From the NCBI RefSeq assembly GCF_025370775.1, contig NZ_JAMXEX010000011.1, positions 62,001 through 126,000 on the forward strand: 64,000 nucleotides of DNA, read 5' to 3'. The DNA comes from Ancylothrix sp. D3o. Its GTDB lineage: Bacteria > Cyanobacteriota > Cyanobacteriia > Cyanobacteriales > Oscillatoriaceae. Below the pieces are notes generated by a model. The model was not told the origin of the DNA and did no database searches. It worked only from the letters and a program-made list of their open reading frames with translations. Positions 1 to 13,045 of the stretch are shown piece after piece; within the stretch, counting starts at the first letter, position 1; every line of letters starts with the position of its first letter. A program made the translations under genes and the position numbers.

Positions 1-1953
1 GAAGGAATGACGATTCAACGGGGGAGTTTAAGGATTAGTGAATGGAAGCGAGAAATTATTGCCAATAATTTATATGGGGTGGATATTAAGCCAGAGGCGA
101 TTGAGATTTCTAAGTTAAGAATGTGGTTGTCTTTGGTGGTTGATATTCCTAAAATTGAGGATGTGGAACCTCTGCCAAATTTGGATTATAAGTTGATGTG
201 TGGCGATTCTTTGATTAGTACGATTAATGGCGAGGTTTTGATTCCAGATCCGACTAAGGATGTTCAACAGTTGTCGTTGTTGGTGACGCCGGTTCAACAG
301 GCTATTCAGCCTTTGTTGGAGTTACAAAGGCAATATTTTGAGGCAGATTCGAGTTTGAGGAATGAGATTCGTGGGCAAATTTTGACGGCGGAAAAGGAGG
401 TTTTTAAAACTGCGATTGCGGATAGAATGAAATATTGGGTGGAGGAAAAGCGGCAAATTGAGGAGAATATTAAGCGGCTGAAAAAAAGCAGTAAAATACA
501 GGAGAAACGGGTAGGAGAAATTGCGGGTAAAATTGCGGAGTTGGAAAGCTTTGCTTTGGCGGTGGAAGGTGGAGAAAGGGCTGTTAATTTCTTTCAATAT
601 TATCTACATTTTCGGGATGTTTTCGAGGAAAAAGGCGGTTTTGATGTGGTGATTGGTAATCCGCCTTATGTGCGACAGGAGGCGATTAAGGATTTGAAAC
701 CGGCCCTACAATTAGAGTATGATTGTTATACCGGCGTGGCTGATTTGTATGTTTATTTCTATGAACGTGGTTTCAATTTATTGAGGAATGGCGGTTATTT
801 AAGTTATATTTCTTCTAATAAGTATTTCCGGGCCGGTTATGGGGAAAAGTTGCGGAAATTGTTGGCAGAAAAGGCAAAAATTGAGTATTTGATTGATTTT
901 GGGGATGCAGCGGTTTTTGAGGCAATTGCTTATCCAAGTATTATTTTGGTGAGGAATGATTCACCAGAAAATCATCGGGTTAAGGTGTTGAATTGGCAGG
1001 AAGATAAATCAATTGCTGATTTTAATAAAGTATTTTTGCAAGATTGTTTTGAGATGGAACAATCGCAGTTAACGGCGGATGGTTGGCGTTTGGAATCTTC
1101 TGCGGTTTTAAATTTGTTGGATAAGTTACGCAAGAATGGAACGCCTTTAGGGGAGTATGTAAATGGCCGGTTTTATCGGGGAATTTTAACTGGTTTTAAT
1201 GAGGCGTTTGTGGTGGATAGGGAGACGAGAGATGGTTTAATTGCTGAAGATTCTTCCTCTGCTGATGTTTTGAAGCCGTTTTTACGCGGACGGGATGTGA
1301 AAAGGTGGTGTGTTGATTATAAAGATTTATGGTTGCTATTTATTCCTTGGCATTTTCCATTACATAATGATAGTTCAATACAAGGTGCTTCTTTAGCTGC
1401 GGAAACAGCGTTTAAAAAGCAATATCCAGCGATATACAAGCATCTTTTGAAATTTAAGGATCAGCTTTCATCACGCAATCAAGCTGAAACTGGAGTTAGA
1501 TACGAATGGTACGCTTTACAAAGATGTGCTGCAAGTTATTGGCAAGAATTTGAGGAACAGAAAATTTTTATACCCGCAATTACTCAAAATGTTGAATATG
1601 CAGCCGATTATATTGGTTATTTTGGCAATGATAAAACCTCCATTTGTGTAACTGATAACGTAAAATTTTTACTTGGTTTACTGAATTCAAAAATCTTAGG
1701 CTGGTTTATTCGTCAGATAGCCCCTACTAAACAAGGTGGTTTTTATGAATTTAAGCCTACTTATGTGACGCAAATTCCCATTCCCACCGCCTCTGAATCT
1801 GAGAAACAAAAGATTGAGAGTTTAGTGCAAAAATGCCTGGATGCGAAAGGGCAAGGGGTGGTAGAATGGGAGGCAGAAATTGATGAGATAGTGGCCGGTT
1901 TGTATGGGTTGACGGAGGAGGAGATGAGGATTATTTGGGAGATAAATAAATGA
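1..1953 (+). CDS. Eco57I-type DNA adenine methylase / type IIG-like restriction-modification protein (5' end outside window)
   Basis: The frame is open from base 1, so the ATG at 7 is probably internal. This is the C-terminal part of an N6-adenine DNA methyltransferase. The start resembles the part of Eco57I-like enzymes after motif I (NLYGVDIKPEAIEISKLR). The catalytic NPPY tetrapeptide is at residues 218-221, counted from base 7. Between them is a charged helical insert (about 95-190). The C-terminal half looks like a target-recognition region (about 380-600), with a TaqI-like ending that includes FIRQIAPTKQGGFYEFKP. The SAM-binding DPACGSG-type motif should lie upstream of the window. The stop overlaps the next start (ATGA). 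With the helicase at 3129 it may form a defence or restriction module (inference). It could instead be a solitary methylase; no nuclease motif is visible in this part. Confidence 0.85.
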   Translation, partial: EGMTIQRGSLRISEWKREIIANNLYGVDIKPEAIEISKLRMWLSLVVDIPKIEDVEPLPNLDYKLMCGDSLISTINGEVLIPDPTKDVQQLSLLVTPVQQAIQPLLELQRQYFEADSSLRNEIRGQILTAEKEVFKTAIADRMKYWVEEKRQIEENIKRLKKSSKIQEKRVGEIAGKIAELESFALAVEGGERAVNFFQYYLHFRDVFEEKGGFDVVIGNPPYVRQEAIKDLKPALQLEYDCYTGVADLYVYFYERGFNLLRNGGYLSYISSNKYFRAGYGEKLRKLLAEKAKIEYLIDFGDAAVFEAIAYPSIILVRNDSPENHRVKVLNWQEDKSIADFNKVFLQDCFEMEQSQLTADGWRLESSAVLNLLDKLRKNGTPLGEYVNGRFYRGILTGFNEAFVVDRETRDGLIAEDSSSADVLKPFLRGRDVKRWCVDYKDLWLLFIPWHFPLHNDSSIQGASLAAETAFKKQYPAIYKHLLKFKDQLSSRNQAETGVRYEWYALQRCAASYWQEFEEQKIFIPAITQNVEYAADYIGYFGNDKTSICVTDNVKFLLGLLNSKILGWFIRQIAPTKQGGFYEFKPTYVTQIPIPTASESEKQKIESLVQKCLDAKGQGVVEWEAEIDEIVAGLYGLTEEEMRIIWEINK

Positions 1954-2123
1954 AACTGGGAGTCCACAAAGAAGATGATGCTCTCTATTTGCGATTAGAT
2001 GATTCGGCGATTGTGGAATCTGAGAAAGTCAGCAATGGCATTATTTTAGATTACAATCTTGAGGGTAAAATTGTGGGGGTGGAGGTGCTGTATATAAGTA
2101 AAAAATGGCCCAAAAAGCAGTAG
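1950..2123 (+). CDS. DUF2283 family small protein
   Basis: A 57-codon gene starting MKLGVHKEDDALYLRLDD and ending in a lysine-rich tail. The acidic DDALYLRL start and the later GIILDYNLEGKIVGVEVL stretch are the DUF2283 signature, a compact beta-rich protein of unknown function. Its ATG overlaps the methylase stop by ATGA, so translation is probably coupled. DUF2283 genes commonly sit beside toxin-antitoxin or DUF4258-type genes (family knowledge), which fits the TA genes just downstream. No DUF4258 partner is seen here, so it may be an orphan. Confidence 0.75.
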   Translation: MKLGVHKEDDALYLRLDDSAIVESEKVSNGIILDYNLEGKIVGVEVLYISKKWPKKQ

Positions 2124-2176
2124 ATGAATGATATAATTAGACAAGAAAAATTGATAAGAAGAGGAAAGAAAAACCA

Positions 2177-2461
2177 ATGACACTAAAACTTAACCTCACA
2201 CCAGAATTAGAATCCTGCTTAATAAAACAAGCAGAAATAGAAGGCGTTTCCGTAGAATCTTATGCCGTAGAAATTTTAACCAAGCATCTTTTCGCAGATG
2301 AGCGTCGAGAAAAACTGGTTGATTTACTGCAAAATTGGATAGAAGAAACAGAACCCCAAGAGCAACAGGAAACAGGAGAATATTTAATCAAGGCTTTAGA
2401 TAATGATCGCTTAAGCGATAGACAATTATTTCCAGATGAACTAAAGGGGGTAACTTGGTAA
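2177..2461 (+). CDS. VapB-like antitoxin (ribbon-helix-helix type)
   Basis: A 94-residue protein. Its first 40 residues (LKLNLTPELESCLIKQAEIEGVSVESYAVEIL) have the pattern of RHH/CopG antitoxins that pair with PIN-domain toxins: a short beta strand, then two helices. The rest is acidic and would wrap the toxin. A preceding AAGAGGAAAG provides a purine-rich ribosome-binding site. A truncated PIN-toxin reading frame overlaps its 3' end (see 2455-2568), so this antitoxin seems to have lost its toxin. It could still act as a DNA-binding repressor or cross-antidote (inference). Confidence 0.6.
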   Translation: MTLKLNLTPELESCLIKQAEIEGVSVESYAVEILTKHLFADERREKLVDLLQNWIEETEPQEQQETGEYLIKALDNDRLSDRQLFPDELKGVTW

Positions 2462-2568
2462 CTCAAATTATCTTACTAGATGCCGGCCCTCTGGGGATAG
2501 TCACCAACCCCAAACTAAAGCGAAACCAAACTCTAATAGCAAACAGTTATTACAGGAAAAAACCATGA
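2455..2568 (+). pseudogene. Truncated VapC PIN-domain toxin remnant
   Basis: Reading from a TTG that overlaps the antitoxin's last codons gives LVTQIILLDAGPLGIVTNPK, then unrelated residues and a stop after 37 codons. The LLDAGPLGIVTNP segment is the classic first strand of VapC-type PIN ribonucleases and contains the first catalytic Asp. The remaining roughly 100 residues, with the other acidic residues, are missing. The position directly behind a VapB-like antitoxin, in the overlapping arrangement usual for vapBC, supports a toxin inactivated by deletion. The frame ends inside the start of the next antitoxin gene (ATGA-like overlap at 2565). Confidence 0.65.
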
Positions 2569-2792
2569 ATCACATTACTGAAAAAACTTCCAATTTTGCG
2601 GAAGCGTTAGAAGTGATAGAAACTCTCTCATTGCCAGAACAACAAACCTTGATAGAAATTATCCAAAAACGGATATCTCTTAAACGTCGAGGGGAAATAG
2701 CTGCGAGTATTGCAGAGGCGCATGAGGAATACAAAGCAGGGAAAACGAGACGAGTTACAGTAGACGAATTGATGGCAGAATTAGAAGAATGA
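2565..2792 (+). CDS. Antitoxin of a RelE-type toxin-antitoxin pair
   Basis: A 75-residue acidic protein (LPEQQTLIEIIQKRI, then a helical EEYKAGKTRRVTVDELMAELEE tail). This layout is common in cyanobacterial antitoxins: a short N-terminal dimerisation or DNA-binding part and a C-terminal toxin-binding helix with the VDELMAEL motif. It ends in ATGA, overlapping the toxin start at 2789, which is typical of TA operons and ensures coupled synthesis. Its exact antitoxin family (RelB- or Phd-like) cannot be assigned by eye. Confidence 0.75.
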   Translation: MNHITEKTSNFAEALEVIETLSLPEQQTLIEIIQKRISLKRRGEIAASIAEAHEEYKAGKTRRVTVDELMAELEE

Positions 2793-3070
2793 ACTTAGTT
2801 TTATCTACATCTTATCTTCGTGCTTTAAAATCAATAGTGAAAAAAAATCCCTCACTAAAAGAGGCCATTCAGGAACGCTTAAAAATACTAGAAAGTGATC
2901 CGTTTAATCCTGTATTGCGAAGTCATAAGTTAAAAGGCGAATTAGCCGGTGCATGGTCATGTACAGTAGCTTATGATTGTCGGATTGTTTTTAATTTTGT
3001 AATGAATGAGGAAACAGGAGAAGAGGAAATATTGCTGATTAATATTGGCACCCATGATGAGGTGTATTAG
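2789..3070 (+). CDS. RelE/ParE-superfamily toxin (mRNA interferase type)
   Basis: A 93-residue toxin of the RelE/YafQ-like family, predicted to bind the ribosome and cleave mRNA. The markers are FNPVLRSHKLKGELAGAWSCTVAYDCRIVF in the centre (the SHKLKG...WS...YRIVF signature) and IGTHDEVY at the end, where His and Tyr are often functional. Length is normal for the family and the gene looks intact. It overlaps the antitoxin by 4 bases. Nearest alternatives are a ParE-like gyrase inhibitor or HigB-like toxin. The GTHDEVY ending favours the RelE/YafQ mRNA interferase branch. Confidence 0.85.
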   Translation: MNLVLSTSYLRALKSIVKKNPSLKEAIQERLKILESDPFNPVLRSHKLKGELAGAWSCTVAYDCRIVFNFVMNEETGEEEILLINIGTHDEVY

Positions 3071-3128
3071 GAATAAACCCGGTTTCTGAATTCGACCGTT
3101 AATATCCATCCTACAAACAAATAAAAAA

Positions 3129-6100
3129 ATGCCCCTCCCCGACTACATAGACAACTCGCAGCACAAACTCGAAAACCTGCTTAACATCCTCATAGAAGAC
3201 GAAAAACAAGACAGCCTAGATATCGCCACCGGCTTTTTTCGCATCGAAGCCTGGTTACGCCTAGAAACCGCTATGAATCAACTTAAAAGCCTGCGGTTAC
3301 TGATAGGAAGAGATCCCGCCATACGCCCCGCCGAACCGGCCAACATCGACCTCATCAAACACTTTCGCCACGACATCCAACAACAACTAGAAACCCAAGA
3401 ATTCAACGCCAAATACAAACAACAAATTGACCGCATCATCACCTACCTTTTGCAAGATAATATCCACGTCCGCCTTTTTGGCGCACAGGGAAATACCCCC
3501 CAATTTCTTCACGCCAAAGCCTACATATTTGACCACTATAGCATCGTTGGTTCCAGCAACTTCACCCCCGCCGGCATTAATGGCAATACCGAGCTAAATT
3601 TGCTTAACAAAATCGCCGCTGTAGCCCACGACTTGCGATATAATTGGTTTGAAAAATTCTGGAATCACCCAAGCGTAGACCTAGACTACAAAGCCAAATT
3701 AATTGACACCTTAAACGCCTCAAAATTTGGCAGCAAAGCCTACACACCCCACCAAGTATTTCTCAAAGCACTTTACGAACTCTTCAAAGATGACACCCTC
3801 ACCGCCGAAGCCGAACGCACATCTTTAGAACTTGCAAGTTTTCAACAAGAAGGCTTTGCCAGAGCAGTAAAACTCATCGAAAAACACAATGGTTGTATTG
3901 TAGCAGATGCGGTAGGACTCGGAAAAACTTTCATCGGATTACGCCTACTTGACTATTATTTAATCCGCGAAAAACGCCCCGGTAAAATTCCCCGTGCTCT
4001 TGTACTTTGTCCCGCCCAACTACGCGATTTAGTCTGGATAAAAAAACTCGATGAATTTGGCATCAAAGCCGACATTATTTCCCACGAAGAAATTAGCCGG
4101 CAAACCTTTAATATCCAAAAATATAACAACTATGACATCATCATTGTTGATGAAGCCCACAACTTCCGAAACAGCGCCACAAACCGCTATCAAAACCTCC
4201 TCAAATTAGTTAGCACCGGCAAACGAACTAAACGCCTCGCCCTCCTAACCGCCACACCCATTAATAATAGCATTTATGATATTTATCATCAAGTTTTACT
4301 ACTAACTCGTGGCAATGAAACTTACTACCACGACTGGGGAATATCTAACTTAAAAACCTATTTTAAAGCCCTCGATAAAGGCGGTGTAGAAATCACAGAA
4401 TTGTTAATGGAAACAATGGTAAGACGCAGCCGGCAAGACGTGATTAGAAGACAACAAGCCGGTGAGGAAATTCGCATCAATGGCAAAATCATCAAATTTC
4501 CTAAACGCCAACTCGAACAATTTACCTATAACTTTGAAGAAACTTTTAGCGGTTTATATTCTAACCTTGGCGAACTCATAGATCAACTTAATTTATCTCC
4601 CTATAACATCAAAGCCTTTAAAAAAAGCCCAGAAAAACAAGATAACAACGAAATCAAACGAAATCAAGCCTTAACCGCCTTACAAAAAACCTTATACTTC
4701 AAACGTTTTGAAAGTTCCCTCATAGCATTTAAACGCAGCATCCAAATGCAGCGAGACTTCCAAGAAAAATTTTATCAAATTCTCAGCAAAGAAAACAAAC
4801 TTTTAGACAGCAAAAACTTTCGCAAGCTAATCATAGCCGCCGCTGACGAACAAGAAGAAAATACCTCTATTGATGAGATTATTAACACCCTGACAGAAGT
4901 TGACCCCAAAGACTATGATATCAACCAAATCAAAGAGCAAATTCAAGCTGATTTAACTCTTTTAAACAACATCCTTACCACCTTAAACAAAATCGAATCC
5001 TCAGCCACCGACTGCAAATTAGTAAAATTTAAAAACCTGCTTAAAACAGAATTAACAGGCCAAAAGCTTATCATATTTACCTATTTTAAAGACACCGCTG
5101 ATTATCTCTATAACCAACTGATACAAGATTCCGAATTTATCAGCCAAGTTTCTACAATTGACAAAATCACCGGCGACACATCCCCCAAACAAAGGGAAGA
5201 AAAAGTTAAACGTTTTGCCCCAAAAGCCAACGCCCAAAGTGCAGAAGAGTTAAGCCAACTTCAACAAAAACCCATCGATATTTTAATTTGTACAGATGTC
5301 TTATCCGAAGGTCAAAACTTACAAGATGCCGGCATTTTAATTAACTACGATTTACACTGGAACCCCGTTAGAATGATTCAAAGGGCCGGTAGAATTGACC
5401 GTTTAGGCACAGATTACAATGAACTATTAATTTATAACTGCTTTCCTGAACAAGGCTTAGACGACTTATTAGGATTAGTAAAAAGACTGCAACAACGCAT
5501 CGCCACCATTGACCGCGAAGTTGGATTAGATGGTAGCGTATTAGGGGAAATAATCTCAGAAAAATCTCTCGAAGAACTCTATAAACTCAAACACGCTGAC
5601 AGCGATGCCGAAAAACAAGCCATCCTTGACGAATTAGAACAAACCGCCGAATTAGTTTCTTTAGATGAGCTCAGACTCCCCCTCTTAGAATTTCTCCAAA
5701 ACGACAACAAACAAATTATCGAAGATATCCCCTTTGGTATTCATAGCACTTGGCAAAAAACAATTTATCACCCTCACCAAAATGTAACAGAAGGCGGAAT
5801 TTTCCTTGCATTTCGAGCCAGAGATAGACACTTTTGGCATTTTTACCCGTGTATTGATGGCTTTATTTCTCTTGATGCCAAAAATTTAATCACAGACAAA
5901 CGCATGATTTTTAATTGGCTAAAATGCAAAGCCTCGGATTTTCCCCCACCCGACACATTAAGGCCGGTGGAATTTGATTACCGCATTTTTTCGGTTTTAG
6001 AAACAGCCGTAAGCAACCTCTTAAACATCTTGCAAAAACAACAAACCGGCAAAAGCGTAAAACCGTCAATGACAAAATTACTCCAAAAAATCAACTACGC

Positions 6101-6398
6101 ACTTATTCAACCGAATTTATTTCAACAAAACCCAATTCTGGATGAAGACGCCAAACAACGAGTATTAAAAATCCTCACTACTGTTAACTCCCGTAGCTAT
6201 GAACGAGATATTAAATTAATTTGGGAAGCATTTACTAACCACAAAAACCTTAGCTTACTGCTAACAAAACTTGATGAATACTTTTTAGAAACGGGCCACT
6301 ACTCAGAACTAGACGAACCAACAGAAACTAGGCCGGTGCAACAAAGCATCAAAAAACAAGACATCCAACTCATTTGTTATCAATGGTTTAAACCTTAA
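3129..6398 (+). CDS. PLD-family nuclease fused to SNF2-type DEAH helicase
   Basis: A 1089-residue protein. Residues about 1-190 form a phospholipase-D/HKD nuclease-like domain: the HxK motif starts at H128 (HAKAYIFDHYSIVGSSNFT) and only one HKD motif is present. Residues about 235-780 are an SNF2 helicase core: Walker A GLGKT at 263-267, DEAH at 341-344, LLTATPINN, the motif V region LSEGQNLQDA, and motif VI QRAGRIDR from about 750. The C-terminal 300 residues are uncharacterised. Fusions of N-terminal HKD nucleases to Snf2-like helicases are a known but uncharacterised family. The upstream methylase suggests a restriction or phage-defence role (inference). Walker A, DEAH and the single HKD motif all look intact. 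Confidence 0.85.
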   Translation: MPLPDYIDNSQHKLENLLNILIEDEKQDSLDIATGFFRIEAWLRLETAMNQLKSLRLLIGRDPAIRPAEPANIDLIKHFRHDIQQQLETQEFNAKYKQQIDRIITYLLQDNIHVRLFGAQGNTPQFLHAKAYIFDHYSIVGSSNFTPAGINGNTELNLLNKIAAVAHDLRYNWFEKFWNHPSVDLDYKAKLIDTLNASKFGSKAYTPHQVFLKALYELFKDDTLTAEAERTSLELASFQQEGFARAVKLIEKHNGCIVADAVGLGKTFIGLRLLDYYLIREKRPGKIPRALVLCPAQLRDLVWIKKLDEFGIKADIISHEEISRQTFNIQKYNNYDIIIVDEAHNFRNSATNRYQNLLKLVSTGKRTKRLALLTATPINNSIYDIYHQVLLLTRGNETYYHDWGISNLKTYFKALDKGGVEITELLMETMVRRSRQDVIRRQQAGEEIRINGKIIKFPKRQLEQFTYNFEETFSGLYSNLGELIDQLNLSPYNIKAFKKSPEKQDNNEIKRNQALTALQKTLYFKRFESSLIAFKRSIQMQRDFQEKFYQILSKENKLLDSKNFRKLIIAAADEQEENTSIDEIINTLTEVDPKDYDINQIKEQIQADLTLLNNILTTLNKIESSATDCKLVKFKNLLKTELTGQKLIIFTYFKDTADYLYNQLIQDSEFISQVSTIDKITGDTSPKQREEKVKRFAPKANAQSAEELSQLQQKPIDILICTDVLSEGQNLQDAGILINYDLHWNPVRMIQRAGRIDRLGTDYNELLIYNCFPEQGLDDLLGLVKRLQQRIATIDREVGLDGSVLGEIISEKSLEELYKLKHADSDAEKQAILDELEQTAELVSLDELRLPLLEFLQNDNKQIIEDIPFGIHSTWQKTIYHPHQNVTEGGIFLAFRARDRHFWHFYPCIDGFISLDAKNLITDKRMIFNWLKCKASDFPPPDTLRPVEFDYRIFSVLETAVSNLLNILQKQQTGKSVKPSMTKLLQKINYALIQPNLFQQNPILDEDAKQRVLKILTTVNSRSYERDIKLIWEAFTNHKNLSLLLTKLDEYFLETGHYSELDEPTETRPVQQSIKKQDIQLICYQWFKP

Positions 6399-7611: not shown

Positions 7612-8295
7612 ATGCAAACAGAAGCTTTTAGAGAGCTTTTCCCCCTTTTTAGCTCAGCAAACCCAGAAACCCTAGAGTGGTTATTAGCAGTTTCCGATCA
7701 ACACGAGTATCCCTCAAACCGAGCCGTGTTGATGGAGGATGCTTGGGGAAATGCGGTTTATTTTTTGGTATCTGGATGGGTGAAAGTCCGTCGGCTATCA
7801 GGCGACAATGTTTTTACCTTGGCTATTTTGGGACGCGGTGATTTTTTTGGAGAAATGGCAATTCTCGATGAGTCCCCCCGTTCTACTGATGTTATCGCAC
7901 TCTCGCCGGTGCAACTGCTCAGCGTTTCCGCACAAAGGTTCATCCAAACCTTGTTTAAAGATTCCCAGTTGCATCATCGAATGTTGCAATTAATGGTGAG
8001 ACGTTTGCGCCAAACAAACTTTCGTTTTCAACTGCAAAACCGGCCCCCCGCAGTCAAACTAGCCAACACCTTAGTCACCCTAGCCCAAAACTACGGTCAA
8101 GCAACCGAAAAGGGTACAATAATTTATAACATCCCCTTTAAAGACTTAGCAGATTTGACAGATATTAGTACCGAAGATACGAGGAAAATTATGCAAAAAC
8201 TCCACGAAAAAGGCTGGCTAAAAATTGACGCAACCAAGCAACTTATGTACTTAACTAATCTCAAGCATTTAACGCATTTAGCTGGACATCAATAG
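7612..8295 (+). CDS. Crp/Fnr-family transcriptional regulator
   Basis: A 227-residue regulator. Residues about 15-125 form a cyclic-nucleotide-type beta roll. The phosphate-binding cassette FFGEMAILDESPRSTDV keeps Gly-Glu and Arg, so cNMP binding is possible. A long dimerisation helix follows (about 125-150). The C-terminal winged helix-turn-helix (about 160-215) contains DLADLTDISTEDTRKIMQKL as recognition region. No cysteines suggest an FeS cluster, so an Fnr-type oxygen sensor is unlikely. A 272-base leader with no other gene lies upstream. It stands alone, and its targets cannot be read from the window. Confidence 0.85.
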   Translation: MQTEAFRELFPLFSSANPETLEWLLAVSDQHEYPSNRAVLMEDAWGNAVYFLVSGWVKVRRLSGDNVFTLAILGRGDFFGEMAILDESPRSTDVIALSPVQLLSVSAQRFIQTLFKDSQLHHRMLQLMVRRLRQTNFRFQLQNRPPAVKLANTLVTLAQNYGQATEKGTIIYNIPFKDLADLTDISTEDTRKIMQKLHEKGWLKIDATKQLMYLTNLKHLTHLAGHQ

Positions 8296-8337
8296 GTATT
8301 TTTGAAGGAGGAAGAGGAGAAAGATTTAATTAATTTT

Positions 8338-8412
8338 TAATTCCCAACTTCCACCTTTCAATTTTCAATTTTCCACTTTCCACTTTCAATTACCAACTAC
8401 CAATTACCAACC
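8338..8412 (+). repeat. Degenerate short tandem repeats in the M61 peptidase leader
   Basis: The 75 bases ending at the peptidase start are almost purine-poor and made of degenerate 7-9-base units such as CAATTTT, CCACTTT and CCAATTA repeated head to tail. There is no purine-rich Shine-Dalgarno sequence before the ATG at 8413. Similar short tandem repeats are frequent in intergenic DNA of filamentous cyanobacteria. Confidence 0.7.
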
Positions 8413-10197
8413 ATGACAGAAGCAACTCAAATTTCACCCACGCGGATCGCCCAAACAACACCGGCCATACATTATTTCGTGGCCATGTCTCAGCCAGAAA
8501 CCCATTTATTTGAAATAACCCTGGAAATAACTGGCTGGAAAAAGCCGATTTTAGATTTAAAAATGCCGGTGTGGACACCAGGCTCTTATTTAGTGCGAGA
8601 ATATAGCAAACACCTGCAAAACTTCACCGCACAAACAAGCAATGAAACCCCCCTAGAAGCCCAAAAAATCAGTAAAAATCACTGGCAAATTCAAACCAGC
8701 GGCACATCAGAAATCACCATCAAATATTGGATCTATGCCAACGAATTAAGCGTTCGTACCAACCACCTCGATCATACACACGGATACTTTAACGGTGCCG
8801 CCTTATTTTTCTATATTCCGGGGTTAGAAAAACACCCCCTCCGCGTCACAATTCAACCGCCGCAAAATTGGCAAGTCACCACCGCTTTACCACCAATTGC
8901 CGGTCAGCAAAACACCTTTCTTTTCCCCGACTTTGATACCCTCGTAGACACTCCCTTTGAAATTGGAACCCATCGCTGCTATACCTTTGAAGTCTTAGGA
9001 AAACCTCACGAATTAGCCATTTGGGGACAAGGCAACGACAACCCAGAAAAAATTATTGACCATACCGCAAAAATCATCCGCTTTGAAGCAGAAATGTTTG
9101 GCGGTTTGCCCTACGAACGCTATCTCTTTTTGCTGCATCTTTCGGCAAGCGGTTTTGGCGGTTTAGAACACAAAGATAGCTGCACTTTAAACTATAACCG
9201 GTTTGGATTTCGCGCCAAAGATAAATACGAACGTTTCATGCAATTAGTAGCCCATGAATTTTTCCATTTGTGGAACGTGAAACGTATTCGTCCCAAAGCT
9301 TTAGAAGTCTTTGATTACGAAAACGAAAATTACACAACTTCTTTGTGGTTTTCGGAAGGAACAACAAGTTTTTATGATTTGATTATTCCGTTTCGGGCCG
9401 GTATTTATGATGCCAAAACTTATTTAGAAAACCTCAGCAAAGAAATTACCCGCCTGCAAACAACCCCCGGACGAAACGTACAACCGGCCTCCGAATCAAG
9501 TTTTGATGCTTGGATTAAACTTTATCGACCCGATGCTAATACCAACAACTCGCAAATTTCCTATTATTTAAAAGGGGAAATGGTATCGTTGTTGCTAGAC
9601 TTACTAATTCGCAACCGGCACAACAACAGCCGCAGCCTTGATGATGTAATGCGCCTGATGTGGGAAAACTTTGGAAAAGCCGAAATAGGGTTTACACCGG
9701 CCCAATTAAAAGAAACCATTGAAACTGTCGCAAATACCGATTTAAGCGATTTCTTTAAACGCTACGTTGATGGTACCGAAGAATTGCCCTTTGATGAATA
9801 TTTGCAATTTTTTGGGCTGAAATTAATTAGCGGTGAAAATAACGCTTTAGTCCCCTTTACAGGATTGACAGTTAAGGCAGAAAATGGTAAAGAAATGATC
9901 AAATTTGTCGAAGCCAATTCACCGGCCCAAAAAGCAAGTATCAATCCGGGGGATGAACTTTTAGCCATCAACCAAATCCGAGTAACCGCAGAAACTTTAA
10001 ACGACCGTTTAAAAGACTATCAACCAGGAGATAGCATTGAAATAACAGTGTTTCATCAAGATGAATTACGAACAGTGCCAGTGATTTTAGCATTACCGCG
10101 TCCTTCACGTTTTACTGTTGTGCCGGTGGAAAATCCAACGCCAGAACAGGAAACAAAATTTGCCGGTTGGCTAGGAATTCCTTTGTCAAAACTGTAA
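8413..10197 (+). CDS. M61-family metallopeptidase with PDZ domain (glycyl aminopeptidase-like)
   Basis: A 594-residue zinc peptidase. The N-terminal beta-rich domain (about 20-200) is the M61 N domain. The catalytic HEFFH motif begins at H281, followed by LWNVKRIRP and then WFSEGTTSFY, whose Glu is the expected third zinc ligand. A PDZ domain lies near the C-terminus (about 490-570, GLTVKAENGKEMIKFVEANSPAQKASINPGDELLAIN). No signal peptide is seen, so it is probably cytoplasmic. M61 enzymes release N-terminal Gly or Ala from peptides. A hairpin with a T-run follows 30 bases after the stop. Confidence 0.92.
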   Translation: MTEATQISPTRIAQTTPAIHYFVAMSQPETHLFEITLEITGWKKPILDLKMPVWTPGSYLVREYSKHLQNFTAQTSNETPLEAQKISKNHWQIQTSGTSEITIKYWIYANELSVRTNHLDHTHGYFNGAALFFYIPGLEKHPLRVTIQPPQNWQVTTALPPIAGQQNTFLFPDFDTLVDTPFEIGTHRCYTFEVLGKPHELAIWGQGNDNPEKIIDHTAKIIRFEAEMFGGLPYERYLFLLHLSASGFGGLEHKDSCTLNYNRFGFRAKDKYERFMQLVAHEFFHLWNVKRIRPKALEVFDYENENYTTSLWFSEGTTSFYDLIIPFRAGIYDAKTYLENLSKEITRLQTTPGRNVQPASESSFDAWIKLYRPDANTNNSQISYYLKGEMVSLLLDLLIRNRHNNSRSLDDVMRLMWENFGKAEIGFTPAQLKETIETVANTDLSDFFKRYVDGTEELPFDEYLQFFGLKLISGENNALVPFTGLTVKAENGKEMIKFVEANSPAQKASINPGDELLAINQIRVTAETLNDRLKDYQPGDSIEITVFHQDELRTVPVILALPRPSRFTVVPVENPTPEQETKFAGWLGIPLSKL

Positions 10198-10226
10198 AAC
10201 ATTGTTTTGAGAGTCAAAAAACCTAA

Positions 10227-10264
10227 CCCCCTACCTGAGAAGGCAAGGGGGAAGACTCTTTTTT
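10227..10264 (+). terminator. Rho-independent terminator of the M61 gene
   Basis: CCCCCT (10227-10232) pairs with AGGGGG (10246-10251), with extra CC/GG pairing inside the loop. A short spacer and TTTTTT at 10259-10264 follow. It lies 30 bases after the stop codon. Confidence 0.6.
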
Positions 10265-10353
10265 AGCTCACAGTTTGGGGAAGATGAAAACCTAACAATT
10301 TTTTAATTTAATTTTGGCGGCTATAACTTAAAACAAAGATAAAATCAAAAAAT

Positions 10354-10372
10354 AACCGCCTTCGGTGGTTTT
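10354..10372 (+). other. Small hairpin in the leader of the TerB-like gene
   Basis: AACCGCC, loop TTC, GGTGGTT forms a 7-bp stem (one G-T pair) 40 bases before the next start, with only TTTT after it. It could be a weak terminator for upstream transcription or a leader structure. Confidence 0.35.
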
Positions 10373-10411
10373 AAAAAGCGAAAATCCCAAATAGCAAATC
10401 CAAAATCCTAT

Positions 10412-10894
10412 ATGATTCAACCACCCCCACCCCCATCTATTACCCCCCATCAAATGAATTTGTTACGAGTTGTAACATCTATGGCTTGGGCTGATGGCGA
10501 ACTAGCTCAAGAAGAAGTTGATTTAATGCTCGACCGGCTCAGTGGGTTATTTGCCAAAGAATCGACTCAAAAAGAAGCCCTCAGCCAAGAATTGCGGGAT
10601 TATTTAATGCAGAATATCCCCCCAGAAGAATCGATAGCAAAATTAGTAAGCCAAGAAGAAAAAGAACTGGTTTTGCAGTTAGGCTATGAAGTAATTGCCG
10701 CTTCTGCACGCACACCAGACGAACCAAAGATTAACGCGGAAGAAGCCGAAGCTTATAAAAAACTGGTGAAACTGTTAAACTTGCCAGAAGAAGCCGTGAA
10801 ACGAGTTGAAAAACAAGGAAAAGCCGGGGAAAATTCAGACACCAGCCTGGTTGATAAATTAACTGAAAAAATGGAGAAATTTATGGGAGGTTAA
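10412..10894 (+). CDS. TerB-like (tellurite-resistance domain) protein
   Basis: A 160-residue, mostly helical protein that starts with a proline tract. The segment MNLLRVVTSMAWADGELAQEEVDLMLDRL is the TerB/DjlA-type repeat: a helix, a MAWADGE acidic turn, then a helix. The turn's Asp and Glu are typical metal-binding residues. A second such half (about 75-110) follows. Despite the name, single TerB proteins in cyanobacteria are not known to confer tellurite resistance; a stress or membrane-associated role is only suggested. It is followed directly by a strong terminator. Confidence 0.75.
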   Translation: MIQPPPPPSITPHQMNLLRVVTSMAWADGELAQEEVDLMLDRLSGLFAKESTQKEALSQELRDYLMQNIPPEESIAKLVSQEEKELVLQLGYEVIAASARTPDEPKINAEEAEAYKKLVKLLNLPEEAVKRVEKQGKAGENSDTSLVDKLTEKMEKFMGG

Positions 10895-10900
10895 GACTGT

Positions 10901-10930
10901 TTGGTGGGCAAAGCCCACCAAGATTTTTTT
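10901..10930 (+). terminator. Strong rho-independent terminator after the TerB-like gene
   Basis: TTGGTGGGC, loop AAA, GCCCACCAA is a perfect 9-bp stem 6 bases after the stop. It is followed by GA and seven T residues (10924-10930). The GGTGGGC/GCCCACC core recurs at 15374 and 47780, so the terminator appears to be built from an interspersed palindrome. Confidence 0.9.
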
Positions 10931-10970
10931 ATATTATAAATTTAACTTTATTGACGCAAATTATAAACTA

Positions 10971-11678
10971 ATGAAAATTTTATTAGTAGATGATGAAGTA
11001 GAATTAACCGAGCCTGTGAGTCGAGTTTTGAAACGAGAAGGCTATCAGGTTGATGTTGCGTATGATGGAGAAAAAGGCAGTGAATTAGCGGCAAAAACCG
11101 AGTATAATTTATTGATTTTAGATTGGATGCTGCCTAAACAAACCGGGCTAGAAGTTTGCCAAAAATTACGAGCCGAAGGGCGCTTAACGCCGGTGTTATT
11201 TTTAACAGCAAAAGATACAATTGATGACCGAGTGCGGGGTTTAGATGCGGGGGCTGATGATTATTTAGTAAAACCGTTTGAATTGCGGGAATTATTAGCA
11301 AGAGTTCGGGCTTTGTTGCGGCGGGGGATGGTGTTAGAGTCGGGGATTTTAACGGAGACAGAAAAGCCGGTGTTGTTGCGGGTGGGAGATTTGGAATTAG
11401 ATACAGAAAATAAATTAGCGTATCGTCAAGGCCGGTTAATTCAACTGTCAGAAAAAGAAAGTCAATTACTCGAATATTTAATGCGCCACCCCGGACAATT
11501 ATTATCACATACGCAAATTTATAAGCATTTGTGGGGAACCGATGAAGAACCGCCTAGCAGTAATGTTTTAGCTGCACAAATACGACTTTTGCGGCGCAAA
11601 ATTGAAGCCGAAGGCGATGCGCCTTTGATTCATAGTGTGTATGGTAAAGGTTATCGCTTTGCCGGTGTGGGGGAATAA
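10971..11678 (+). CDS. OmpR/PhoB-family response regulator
   Basis: A 235-residue two-component regulator. The receiver (1-118) has the DDE acidic cluster at 7-9, phospho-acceptor D51 in LLILDWMLP, a conserved T in FLTAKD, and the K-P pair in LVKPF. The C-terminal winged-helix DNA-binding domain (about 140-232) contains LSEKESQLLEYLMRHPGQLL and ends VYGKGYRFAG. It is the only phospho-receiver with a DNA-binding output in the window. It has no adjacent kinase, so its partner is elsewhere. It resembles cyanobacterial RppA-type regulators, but I would not assign that name from this alone. Confidence 0.92.
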   Translation: MKILLVDDEVELTEPVSRVLKREGYQVDVAYDGEKGSELAAKTEYNLLILDWMLPKQTGLEVCQKLRAEGRLTPVLFLTAKDTIDDRVRGLDAGADDYLVKPFELRELLARVRALLRRGMVLESGILTETEKPVLLRVGDLELDTENKLAYRQGRLIQLSEKESQLLEYLMRHPGQLLSHTQIYKHLWGTDEEPPSSNVLAAQIRLLRRKIEAEGDAPLIHSVYGKGYRFAGVGE

Positions 11679-11705
11679 GGGTAGCAACCGCAGGTGTCCC
11701 AGTGG

Positions 11706-11724
11706 CGCAGGCGTCTCGCCTGCG
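11706..11724. repeat. Perfect palindrome, intergenic
   Basis: CGCAGGCG, spacer TCT, CGCCTGCG. No T-run follows on either strand. It lies in a mosaic of short repeat-like pieces between the OmpR regulator and the tRNA gene, including a GGGATTGCCCCTACA piece at about 11767-11781. Confidence 0.8.
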
Positions 11725-11802
11725 ATGAGCGATCACCGGCCCCCACAAAGCGGGAAAACTACAGAGGGATTGCCCCTACAAGATGATTATTATGTTTTAA
11801 AA

Positions 11803-11887
11803 CGGAGAGGGTGGGATTTGAACCCACGGAACCTTTCGGTTCACTCGGTTTCAAGCCGAGCGCATTCGACCACTCTGCCACCTCTCC
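11803..11887 (-). tRNA. tRNA-Ser (anticodon UGA)
   Basis: Read on the - strand, the acceptor stem GGAGAGG (5') pairs with CCTCTCC (3'), with discriminator G. The anticodon stem CTCGG/CCGAG encloses loop CTTGAAA, with anticodon TGA at 11851-11853. A long variable arm (GAACCGAAAGGTTC) marks a class II tRNA, as expected for serine. The T loop GGTTCAAATCC is canonical. The gene is 85 bases without encoded CCA. Confidence 0.95.
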
Positions 11888-11928
11888 ACCGGCGCACAGT
11901 ATCATCATAACCGGCACCTGCCATTTTG

Positions 11929-12891
11929 TTAATAGCTTTCACCAAAACCGGCCCCTACCACAGCACCGCTACCCCCATAAAGCACCTCCGACGACACCAC
12001 CCCCAAATTATCCGCCACCCAAACCAGCGTAATTTCTGCAACCACACCCCCACACAGCGTCACTATCGAAAAATTCCGCCGGCACTCTGTCTGAGTTTTG
12101 ATAATACGCGGAACTCTAGCAGCATTCAAATACACCGTCCCCAACTGATCCAGATGAGTTGCTCGCCGCAACCGCACTCCTGTATGACGCAAGTTGTGGT
12201 GCATATGACCAAAAGCCACCAAGCAAACCTGTTTTCCCATCGCTTGCGTTTCCATGATCGCTTCTTGAAAATCTGGATCGCCATAGTCGCCACCGATGGG
12301 TTTCCAATCTTTCCCACAGGGATCTTCTGGTAAATCTCCCAGGCCGGTTGGCCCATTATGTCCCAAAAAAATCACCGTTTCATAGCTTGTCCGCCGAGCC
12401 GCCGCCACAATTCGACGAGCCGAAGTTTCAAAACCACTGACTCCAAACCGGCGATAAAAATCTGCATATTTCCACACCGGCCCGCCCCAACTAAAAGGCC
12501 GGCTACCCACCACACTCAACCCTAGTTTGGGGAAATCTAACTTGCCATAACCGACATGAGTATCTCCCAACAAATCTAACTGTTCTTGCAGCCAGTCTTC
12601 AGTTTCCCGGTTATAAGGACACTTGCTGCGCCCCCAATCAGTCGCCGTGTACCAGCCATCGTGATTTCCCAAAATCACAGCCTTCGGGATATCTAAACCG
12701 GCAATTTGTCGCACCACCGGCACCGACTCATTACCCAAATCTCCCACAAACAAAACCAAATCTACACCCAGTTGCTTGAGAGCCAAGCCGTCGGCCTCTT
12801 CCCATTGATCATGGACATCGCCAACAACCGCTACTTTAATCAAATTTTCCTTACTATTCTCAGTGATAATCATGCCCACTATCCTTTCCAT
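11929..12891 (-). CDS. TIGR04168-type metallophosphoesterase
   Basis: A calcineurin-like phosphoesterase. Motifs in order are VVGDVHDQW (metal ligands), [23 protein letters not shown] and a late GHMHHNL. It matches the cyanobacterial and plant TIGR04168 family, whose substrate is unknown. I start it at 12891 (MERIVGMII), where GGAG lies 5 bases upstream. The open frame extends to 12960 but those extra residues do not look like the family, and a later Met at 12873 is also possible. It is convergent with the OmpR/tRNA side and divergent from nadA. Confidence 0.88.
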
Positions 12892-13045
12892 CTTTCTCCA
12901 GCATAGGAGGCTCTGGGCCGGTTGTGGTAGGAATTTGCGATGGCTGCGGGGGTAGGACACACAGCACCCCCTGACATTTTTGGTAAAAACTACTATAATT
13001 TTTTCTACCCATACAGTTTATCCCCGATTCAGGAAAGGCTGACCT

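Follow-up and report, generated by a model that had tools for sequence, protein, structure and literature searches.

A methylase and an HKD-SNF2 nuclease-helicase as a probable two-subunit restriction system, with sigma factors as apparent alternative recognition subunits

Comparison with described systems

Type-2 BREX-Related (BR) systems contain an N-terminal HKD nuclease fused to an SNF2 helicase, which acts with an N6-methylase (PMC12839542). Class 1 DISARM also brings together an SNF2 helicase, an adenine methylase and a PLD domain. The locus described here lies at the beginning of a stretch of 64,000 nucleotides from the cyanobacterium Ancylothrix sp. D3o (C11:62001-126000, within a 6.57-Mb assembly; this whole stretch is called the window), and is made up of an Eco57I-type methylase gene and a gene for a PLD-nuclease/SNF2-helicase fusion, here called HKD-SNF2. 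Both had been pointed out in an earlier reading of the letters alone (the sequence-only reading), and both are indeed present, with their domains found by Pfam. The pair is probably a two-subunit, modular ATP-dependent restriction-modification system, in which HKD-SNF2 would take alternative recognition subunits by way of their N-terminal domain (NTD), the alternatives, to judge from the relatives, being a methylase and a complete sigma-70 factor.

As in the BR systems, HKD stands at the N-terminus of the SNF2 helicase in the window protein. The BR systems differ in carrying genes for a DUF499 ATPase and for DUF3780; no DUF499 gene is found among the neighbours of the window locus, the genome having weak partial matches only on contigs C41 and C48, and DUF3780 gave no Pfam match among the slot and partner genes of the window, no dedicated DUF3780 profile search having been made. 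From class 1 DISARM the window locus differs in lacking drmA and drmB, and in having PLD and SNF2 in one protein. The suggestion of the sequence-only reading that this might be a compact DISARM relative is not borne out: the pair has no drmA, drmB or drmC next to it, either in the 16 kb upstream or among the downstream genes, and the window SNF2 protein reaches 166 bits against DrmD (NCBIfam NF038317), for which the cut-off is 610. The genome matches DUF1998 twice, on contigs C37 and C18 and not on C11.

The methylase resembles the type IIG (Eco57I-like) enzymes in having a methylase core and a TaqI-like specificity domain in one chain, and differs from them in having no N-terminal PD-(D/E)XK nuclease, the nuclease here being a separate motor protein. 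With the type I, type III and ISP systems the locus shares an SF2 motor, a nuclease, a methylase and a target recognition domain (TRD) that are encoded together, and it may well work similarly; it differs from them in that the nuclease is HKD rather than PD-(D/E)XK, the motor is of SNF2 type, and the NTD is not known from those systems. Among catalogued defence proteins the best match of the window HKD-SNF2 is PADLOC C3a139, 'HKD+Snf2' (PDLC01075; E 3e-69), which is the same protein family; the match is stronger for the HKD-SNF2 of clade C, a second lineage discussed below (E 1e-135 over almost the full length). C3a139 is a single-protein model, with no methylase or sigma partner attached. The closest solved SNF2 relative by sequence is RapA, an RNA-polymerase-associated motor, which has neither an HKD domain nor a dedicated sigma partner. 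Openly licensed PMC papers yielded no account of what DUF4391 does, nor of NTD-sigma fusions or the methylase/HKD-SNF2 pair.

The two proteins and their pairing

The HKD-SNF2 gene of the window is complete, with Pfam matches to PLDc_2 (E 8e-11), SNF2-rel_dom (E 3e-19) and Helicase_C (E 2e-19) and with the HxKx4D, GLGKT, DEAH and QRAGRIDR motifs all intact. The methylase frame continues past the start of the window; the full gene is C11:60522-63953 (1143 amino acids), its start lies 1479 bp (493 codons) upstream, and the first ~185 amino acids, which form the NTD, are encoded outside the window. With Pfam matches to Eco57I (E 1e-44) and TaqI_C (E 2e-15), and with the motif DPAVGSGAF at residue 467, the protein is by its sequence an Eco57I/TaqI-type adenine methylase.

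Of special concern here is the N-terminal region of the methylase. A D...ExK nuclease motif, e.g. DLVIHNGKESRDSVGVILEVK, is found near the N-terminus in seven of eight unpaired methylase relatives, and the eighth (L005; loci are designated by L numbers) shows one like it but more widely spaced, as judged by eye. None of the 13 paired methylases, namely that of the window and 12 relatives, has this motif; the pattern matches 2 of 39 paired methylases in a wider set, which chance may explain. The nuclease activity would therefore come from HKD-SNF2. That the upstream part of the gene might reveal an unrelated type IIG enzyme was the outcome that the sequence-only reading had set against its own proposal; a self-contained enzyme of that type is ruled out, since the nuclease motif is not in the methylase N-terminus.

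The pairing itself was followed through 386 cyanobacterial genomes by two independent searches, one for each protein; 21 genomes proved to contain HKD-SNF2, and 49 the methylase. Among the 21 HKD-SNF2 loci examined, 11 have the methylase and eight an NTD-sigma fusion, while one (L034) has remnants of both and one (L033) has neither; a partner or its remnant adjoins HKD-SNF2 in 20 of the 21. A wider sample consisted of the best 80 relatives from a clade C HKD-SNF2 profile search of genome contigs, spread over Proteobacteria, Chloroflexota, Verrucomicrobia, Planctomycetes, Firmicutes, Bacteroidetes and other groups. In these best 80 an NTD-methylase lies no more than 3 kb downstream of HKD-SNF2 in 49 and an NTD-sigma in two, an NTD/DUF4391-like gene stands alone in 12, and the NTD is cut by the contig end in six. 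A partner or its remnant adjoins HKD-SNF2 in about 70 of the 80, in many phyla, and the gap between the two genes is below 50 bp in 29 of the 51 measured. The idea that the methylase and the PLD-SNF2 protein act as one system is thus supported by conserved adjacency, the check that the sequence-only reading had itself suggested, both in cyanobacteria and in many other phyla. The pair would then be a very widespread restriction-type unit, of which the catalogues cover the single 'HKD+Snf2' protein only.

Sigma factors beside HKD-SNF2

Next to HKD-SNF2, several relatives have a gene that encodes the NTD followed by a sigma-70 factor; regions 1.2, 2, 3 and 4 are all present in most of these fusions. 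Altogether 28 NTD-sigma loci were found, 22 of which adjoin HKD-SNF2 or its remnant; 16 of them belong to clade A (L031, L032, L034, L036, L037, L160, L162, L170-L175, L177, L180, L181) and six to clade C (L041-L044, L105, L113). The others are L149, L159 (cut by insertion sequences), L176, L178 and L179, which have no adjoining HKD-SNF2, and L166, which stops at a contig edge. The residues for core binding (DLIQEG) and for promoter reading (FSTYAxWWIRQ; TRERIRQIE) are mostly conserved, the exceptions being an altered region 4.2 in L042a, a change of WW to LL in L105, and a gene interrupted by a stop in L037. For L043 the best match of the sigma portion is to SigA of cyanobacteria (E 3e-120). 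Several of the fusions extend further: a STAND-type ATPase follows in L031, L043, L044, L105, L162 and L170, and C-terminal pentapeptide repeats follow in L036. The last of these is a second, sigma-type copy in the same genome as the window (C8:116000-135900, genes 7619-9835 and 9968-12784), in which the intact NTD-sigma gene adjoins an SNF2 gene from which the HKD domain has been lost. The Vampirovibrionia-like genome of L042 has two tandem NTD-sigma genes (1253-3529 and 3577-5157) beside one HKD-SNF2 gene.

The two kinds of partner can also occur together. Plasmid p4 of Planktothrix agardhii (L160) has, in one run, an intact NTD-methylase, a 434-amino-acid gene, an intact NTD-sigma and HKD-SNF2, and remnants of a methylase or NTD lie beside the NTD-sigma in L032, L034, L159, L173 and L174. 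Because L160 has both subunits and these five loci keep remnants, the methylase and the NTD-sigma of clade A would once have coexisted, with one or the other lost afterwards. The partner changes at least seven times over the HKD-SNF2 tree, and the NTD tree shows three separate origins of the sigma fusion, one within clade A and two within clade C. NTD-methylase was not found anywhere in at least 10 genomes that have NTD-sigma beside HKD-SNF2. When plasmids were searched by tblastn, the clade A NTD matched eight cyanobacterial plasmids and the clade C NTD gave no match. That the sigma fusion is an artefact of assembly was rejected, since it occurs in independent genomes and in finished plasmids. 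A housekeeping-type sigma factor appears to have been captured at least three times at the presumed docking position of a nuclease-motor, replacing or joining the methylase.

A sigma factor is also part of the Mza defence system (mzaABCDE), in which it is mzaA (PMC9523054). This was the only published defence system with a sigma factor found among openly licensed papers, and the MzaA profile matches only the sigma part of L113. The partners in Mza are of the MutL, Z1 and AIPR types; these are absent here.

The N-terminal domain

The NTD, ~185 amino acids long in clade A, to which the window's own belongs, and ~215 in clade C, is shared by the methylases and the sigma fusions. Pairwise identity of the NTD goes with that of HKD-SNF2 (partial rho 0.82 among methylases and 0.78 among sigma fusions) and much less with that of the recognition module to which the NTD is fused (partial rho 0.39 and 0.00, respectively), the sequence pairs in the NTD/HKD-SNF2 correlations not being independent. 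Between L031 and L043, for example, the sigma parts are 54% identical and the STAND parts 61%, as against 21% for the NTD and 32% for HKD-SNF2; between clades A and C in general the sigma, STAND and methylase cores are up to 54-61% identical, and the NTD and HKD-SNF2 18-34%. Since its divergence tracks HKD-SNF2 and not the fused module, the NTD is probably a docking domain for HKD-SNF2, and the methylase and the sigma factor look like interchangeable recognition subunits.

A structure predicted for the NTD from a 49-row alignment (mean pLDDT 90) had no significant match among solved structures by Foldseek and VIA-align, the best being a mitoribosomal protein at Z 5.3, with weak matches near Z 3 to DpnI, HsdR and RecU. 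The clade C NTD is similar to stand-alone DUF4391 (PF14335; hhalign 95.7%, E 9e-9); no such similarity was detected by profile comparison for the NTD of clade A.

HKD-SNF2 is followed by a stand-alone DUF4391 gene in L132, L133, L140, L143 and L145-L148, and type III Mod and Res genes lie 3' of DUF4391 in those DUF4391 loci that were read to the end (by profile in L132). HKD-SNF2 with DUF4391 and type III Mod/Res may represent a third form of the system, in which a PD-(D/E)XK restriction subunit is present in addition to HKD-SNF2.

Proposed mechanism and alternatives

In the working that we propose for the two-subunit system, the TaqI-like domain of the methylase would read a DNA site and the methylase would modify the adenine there in the host, while its NTD, apparently no longer a nuclease, would dock onto HKD-SNF2. 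The latter, as second subunit, would be loaded on meeting an unmodified site, move along the DNA with ATP and cut with its HKD nuclease, like the R subunits of type I and III systems. In the sigma form the promoter-reading subunit would be a complete sigma-70 factor joined to the NTD, beside the methylase or in its place.

Several observations weigh against this reading. Although their HKD-SNF2 proteins are 94% identical, the NTDs of L167 (NTD-methylase) and L180 (NTD-sigma) share only 31%, and the docking would therefore not be very strict. When clade A is taken by itself, NTD and HKD-SNF2 correlate only weakly for unlike partners (rho 0.15), and a large part of the correlation therefore reflects the deep separation of the clades. 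Two hhalign comparisons did not show homology between the NTDs of clades A and C, and with this link missing a single NTD family for the two clades is not claimed. The predicted structure of the window HKD-SNF2 (mean pLDDT 60) is too poor for use. At L033 HKD-SNF2 is accompanied by a STAND protein but lacks any recognition partner; and NTD-sigma is retained without HKD-SNF2 in L176, L178 and L179, which are three genomes of one genus. The genes in question (L176 8952-10403, L178 2925-4370 and L179 10117-11562) possibly encode a domesticated sigma factor.

As to the sigma form, one tentative suggestion is sigma-guided restriction, with NTD-sigma replacing the methylase/TRD, recruiting RNA polymerase and bringing HKD-SNF2 to the promoters or transcription complexes of an invader. 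The signal would then be promoter use or the state of the polymerase, not DNA methylation, and some forms might be gated by their STAND-type ATPase or pentapeptide-repeat extensions. A link between sigma and HKD-SNF2 is mechanistically plausible because RapA-type SNF2 motors already work with RNA polymerase. The sigma-only genomes without NTD-methylase and the sensor-like extensions speak for restriction directed by promoter or polymerase. Sigma-guided restriction, if true, would be categorically new.

Alternatively, and this too is put forward with considerable doubt, NTD-sigma could be a controller, driving operon transcription when free and silent when docked through its NTD onto HKD-SNF2, so that the level of nuclease is sensed, much as C proteins time restriction genes. 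What inclines one to such feedback control is that NTD-sigma sits directly before HKD-SNF2: in clade A it is directly upstream, with overlapping or nearly overlapping genes in L172, L177, L180 and L181, and in L160 it is located between the methylase and HKD-SNF2. A controller would also be served by the retained core-binding and most of the promoter-reading residues. However, the NTD-sigma of clade C is downstream of HKD-SNF2, and at sigma-only loci such as L031, L041, L043 and L170, where NTD-methylase was not found genome-wide, the nuclease would be left without a recognition subunit; in addition, the giant STAND extensions of L031, L043, L105, L162 and L170 go beyond the needs of a simple controller. 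The sigma form would represent either a new choice of target, via transcription rather than methylation, or a new control of a restriction nuclease.

It is unlikely that the two genes encode independent enzymes linked only by a shared island, the one a stand-alone or degenerate type IIG-like methylase and the other a type IV-like, modification-dependent PLD-helicase of the SauUSI kind. SauUSI is a single-protein PLD-helicase restriction enzyme (PMC7913695), and HKD-SNF2 persists without an intact partner in L033 and L034, but the pairing is tight and mostly uninterrupted over many phyla, NTD divergence follows HKD-SNF2, and exchange of partners with the NTD retained would not be expected of unconnected enzymes. 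Very improbable is a cut-down DISARM or BREX-related system with its remaining genes acting from elsewhere in the genome, as the weak matches to the DrmD, DrmMI and BREX PglX models and the DUF1998 (MZB) and partial DUF499 matches on other contigs might suggest, for both proteins fall far under the family cut-offs and neither drmA/B/C nor DUF499 is near the pair or recognised among the neighbours in relatives.

The slot between the genes and the genomic surroundings

The features of the window locus are collected in Table 1. The sequence-only reading had placed a cluster of toxin-antitoxin genes between the two proteins; of this there stands a YafQ-family toxin (31.8 bits in Pfam, where the cut-off is 30, with NCBIfam matches under their cut-offs) with a likely antitoxin assigned by position, whereas for the DUF2283 gene and the 94-amino-acid gene neither role is demonstrated. 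As members of the system these genes were rejected: because the slot holds different genes in different relatives, those of the window are cargo, outside the system.

Table 1. Genes and motifs of the locus, in window positions
Feature	Position	Strand	Basis
Predicted N6-adenine methylase / specificity subunit, C-terminal 650 amino acids (Eco57I + TaqI_C)	1..1953	+	Pfam, open reading frame
NPPY catalytic motif of methylase, residues 713-716	658..669	+	Motif reading
DUF2283 gene in variable slot; also in slot of L035	1950..2123	+	Pfam
94-amino-acid gene in variable slot, no family match	2177..2461	+	Pfam
Putative antitoxin, 75 amino acids, overlapping the toxin gene	2565..2792	+	Position only
YafQ/RelE-family toxin, slot cargo	2789..3070	+	Pfam
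HKD(PLD)-SNF2 nuclease-helicase, 1089 amino acids, conserved, putative effector subunit	3129..6398	+	Pfam, PADLOC, NCBIfam
HKD motif HAKAYIFD, residues 128-135	3510..3533	+	Motif reading
Walker A GLGKT of SNF2 motor, residues 263-267	3915..3929	+	Motif reading
DEAH box, residues 341-344	4149..4160	+	Motif reading

In L035 the slot contains DUF2283 and Xre/RES genes, and in L163 (Microcystis plasmid p1) a SMODS nucleotidyltransferase and an SLATT_4 effector, a CBASS-like pair, at 11551-13018 between the methylase and HKD-SNF2. Genes of 418-439 amino acids occupy one and the same position, between the methylase and NTD-sigma or HKD-SNF2, in L029 (10255-11574), L160 (11656-12960), L164 (13058-14320) and L165 (6354-7610), with no Pfam match in the three scanned (L029, L160 and L165).

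The surroundings of the pair are not the defence island that had been supposed, since the flanks on both sides are housekeeping genes. In the 16 kb upstream of the methylase there are rlmN, lgt, a group-2-like sigma factor, PrsW and AAA/DUF1257 genes, all ordinary or housekeeping, and downstream of HKD-SNF2 are genes for an inositol phosphatase, a Crp-like protein and an M61 peptidase. The ordinary sigma factor, 7 kb upstream on C11, was rejected as a part of the system, being without the NTD.

Two minor features of the plasmid relatives may be added. A small gene 3' of the methylase in L160 (11443-11634) and L163 (11380-11547) repeats the C-terminal ~50 amino acids of the methylase and is closer to the window methylase than the local methylase is; it is a probable leftover from replacement of the specificity region. 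At the other end of the locus DUF1257 precedes the methylase in the window, where there is no helix-turn-helix gene; a small helix-turn-helix regulator gene lies directly 5' of the methylase or its remnant in plasmids L159, L161, L164 and L165, in a placement that resembles that of the controller genes of restriction systems.

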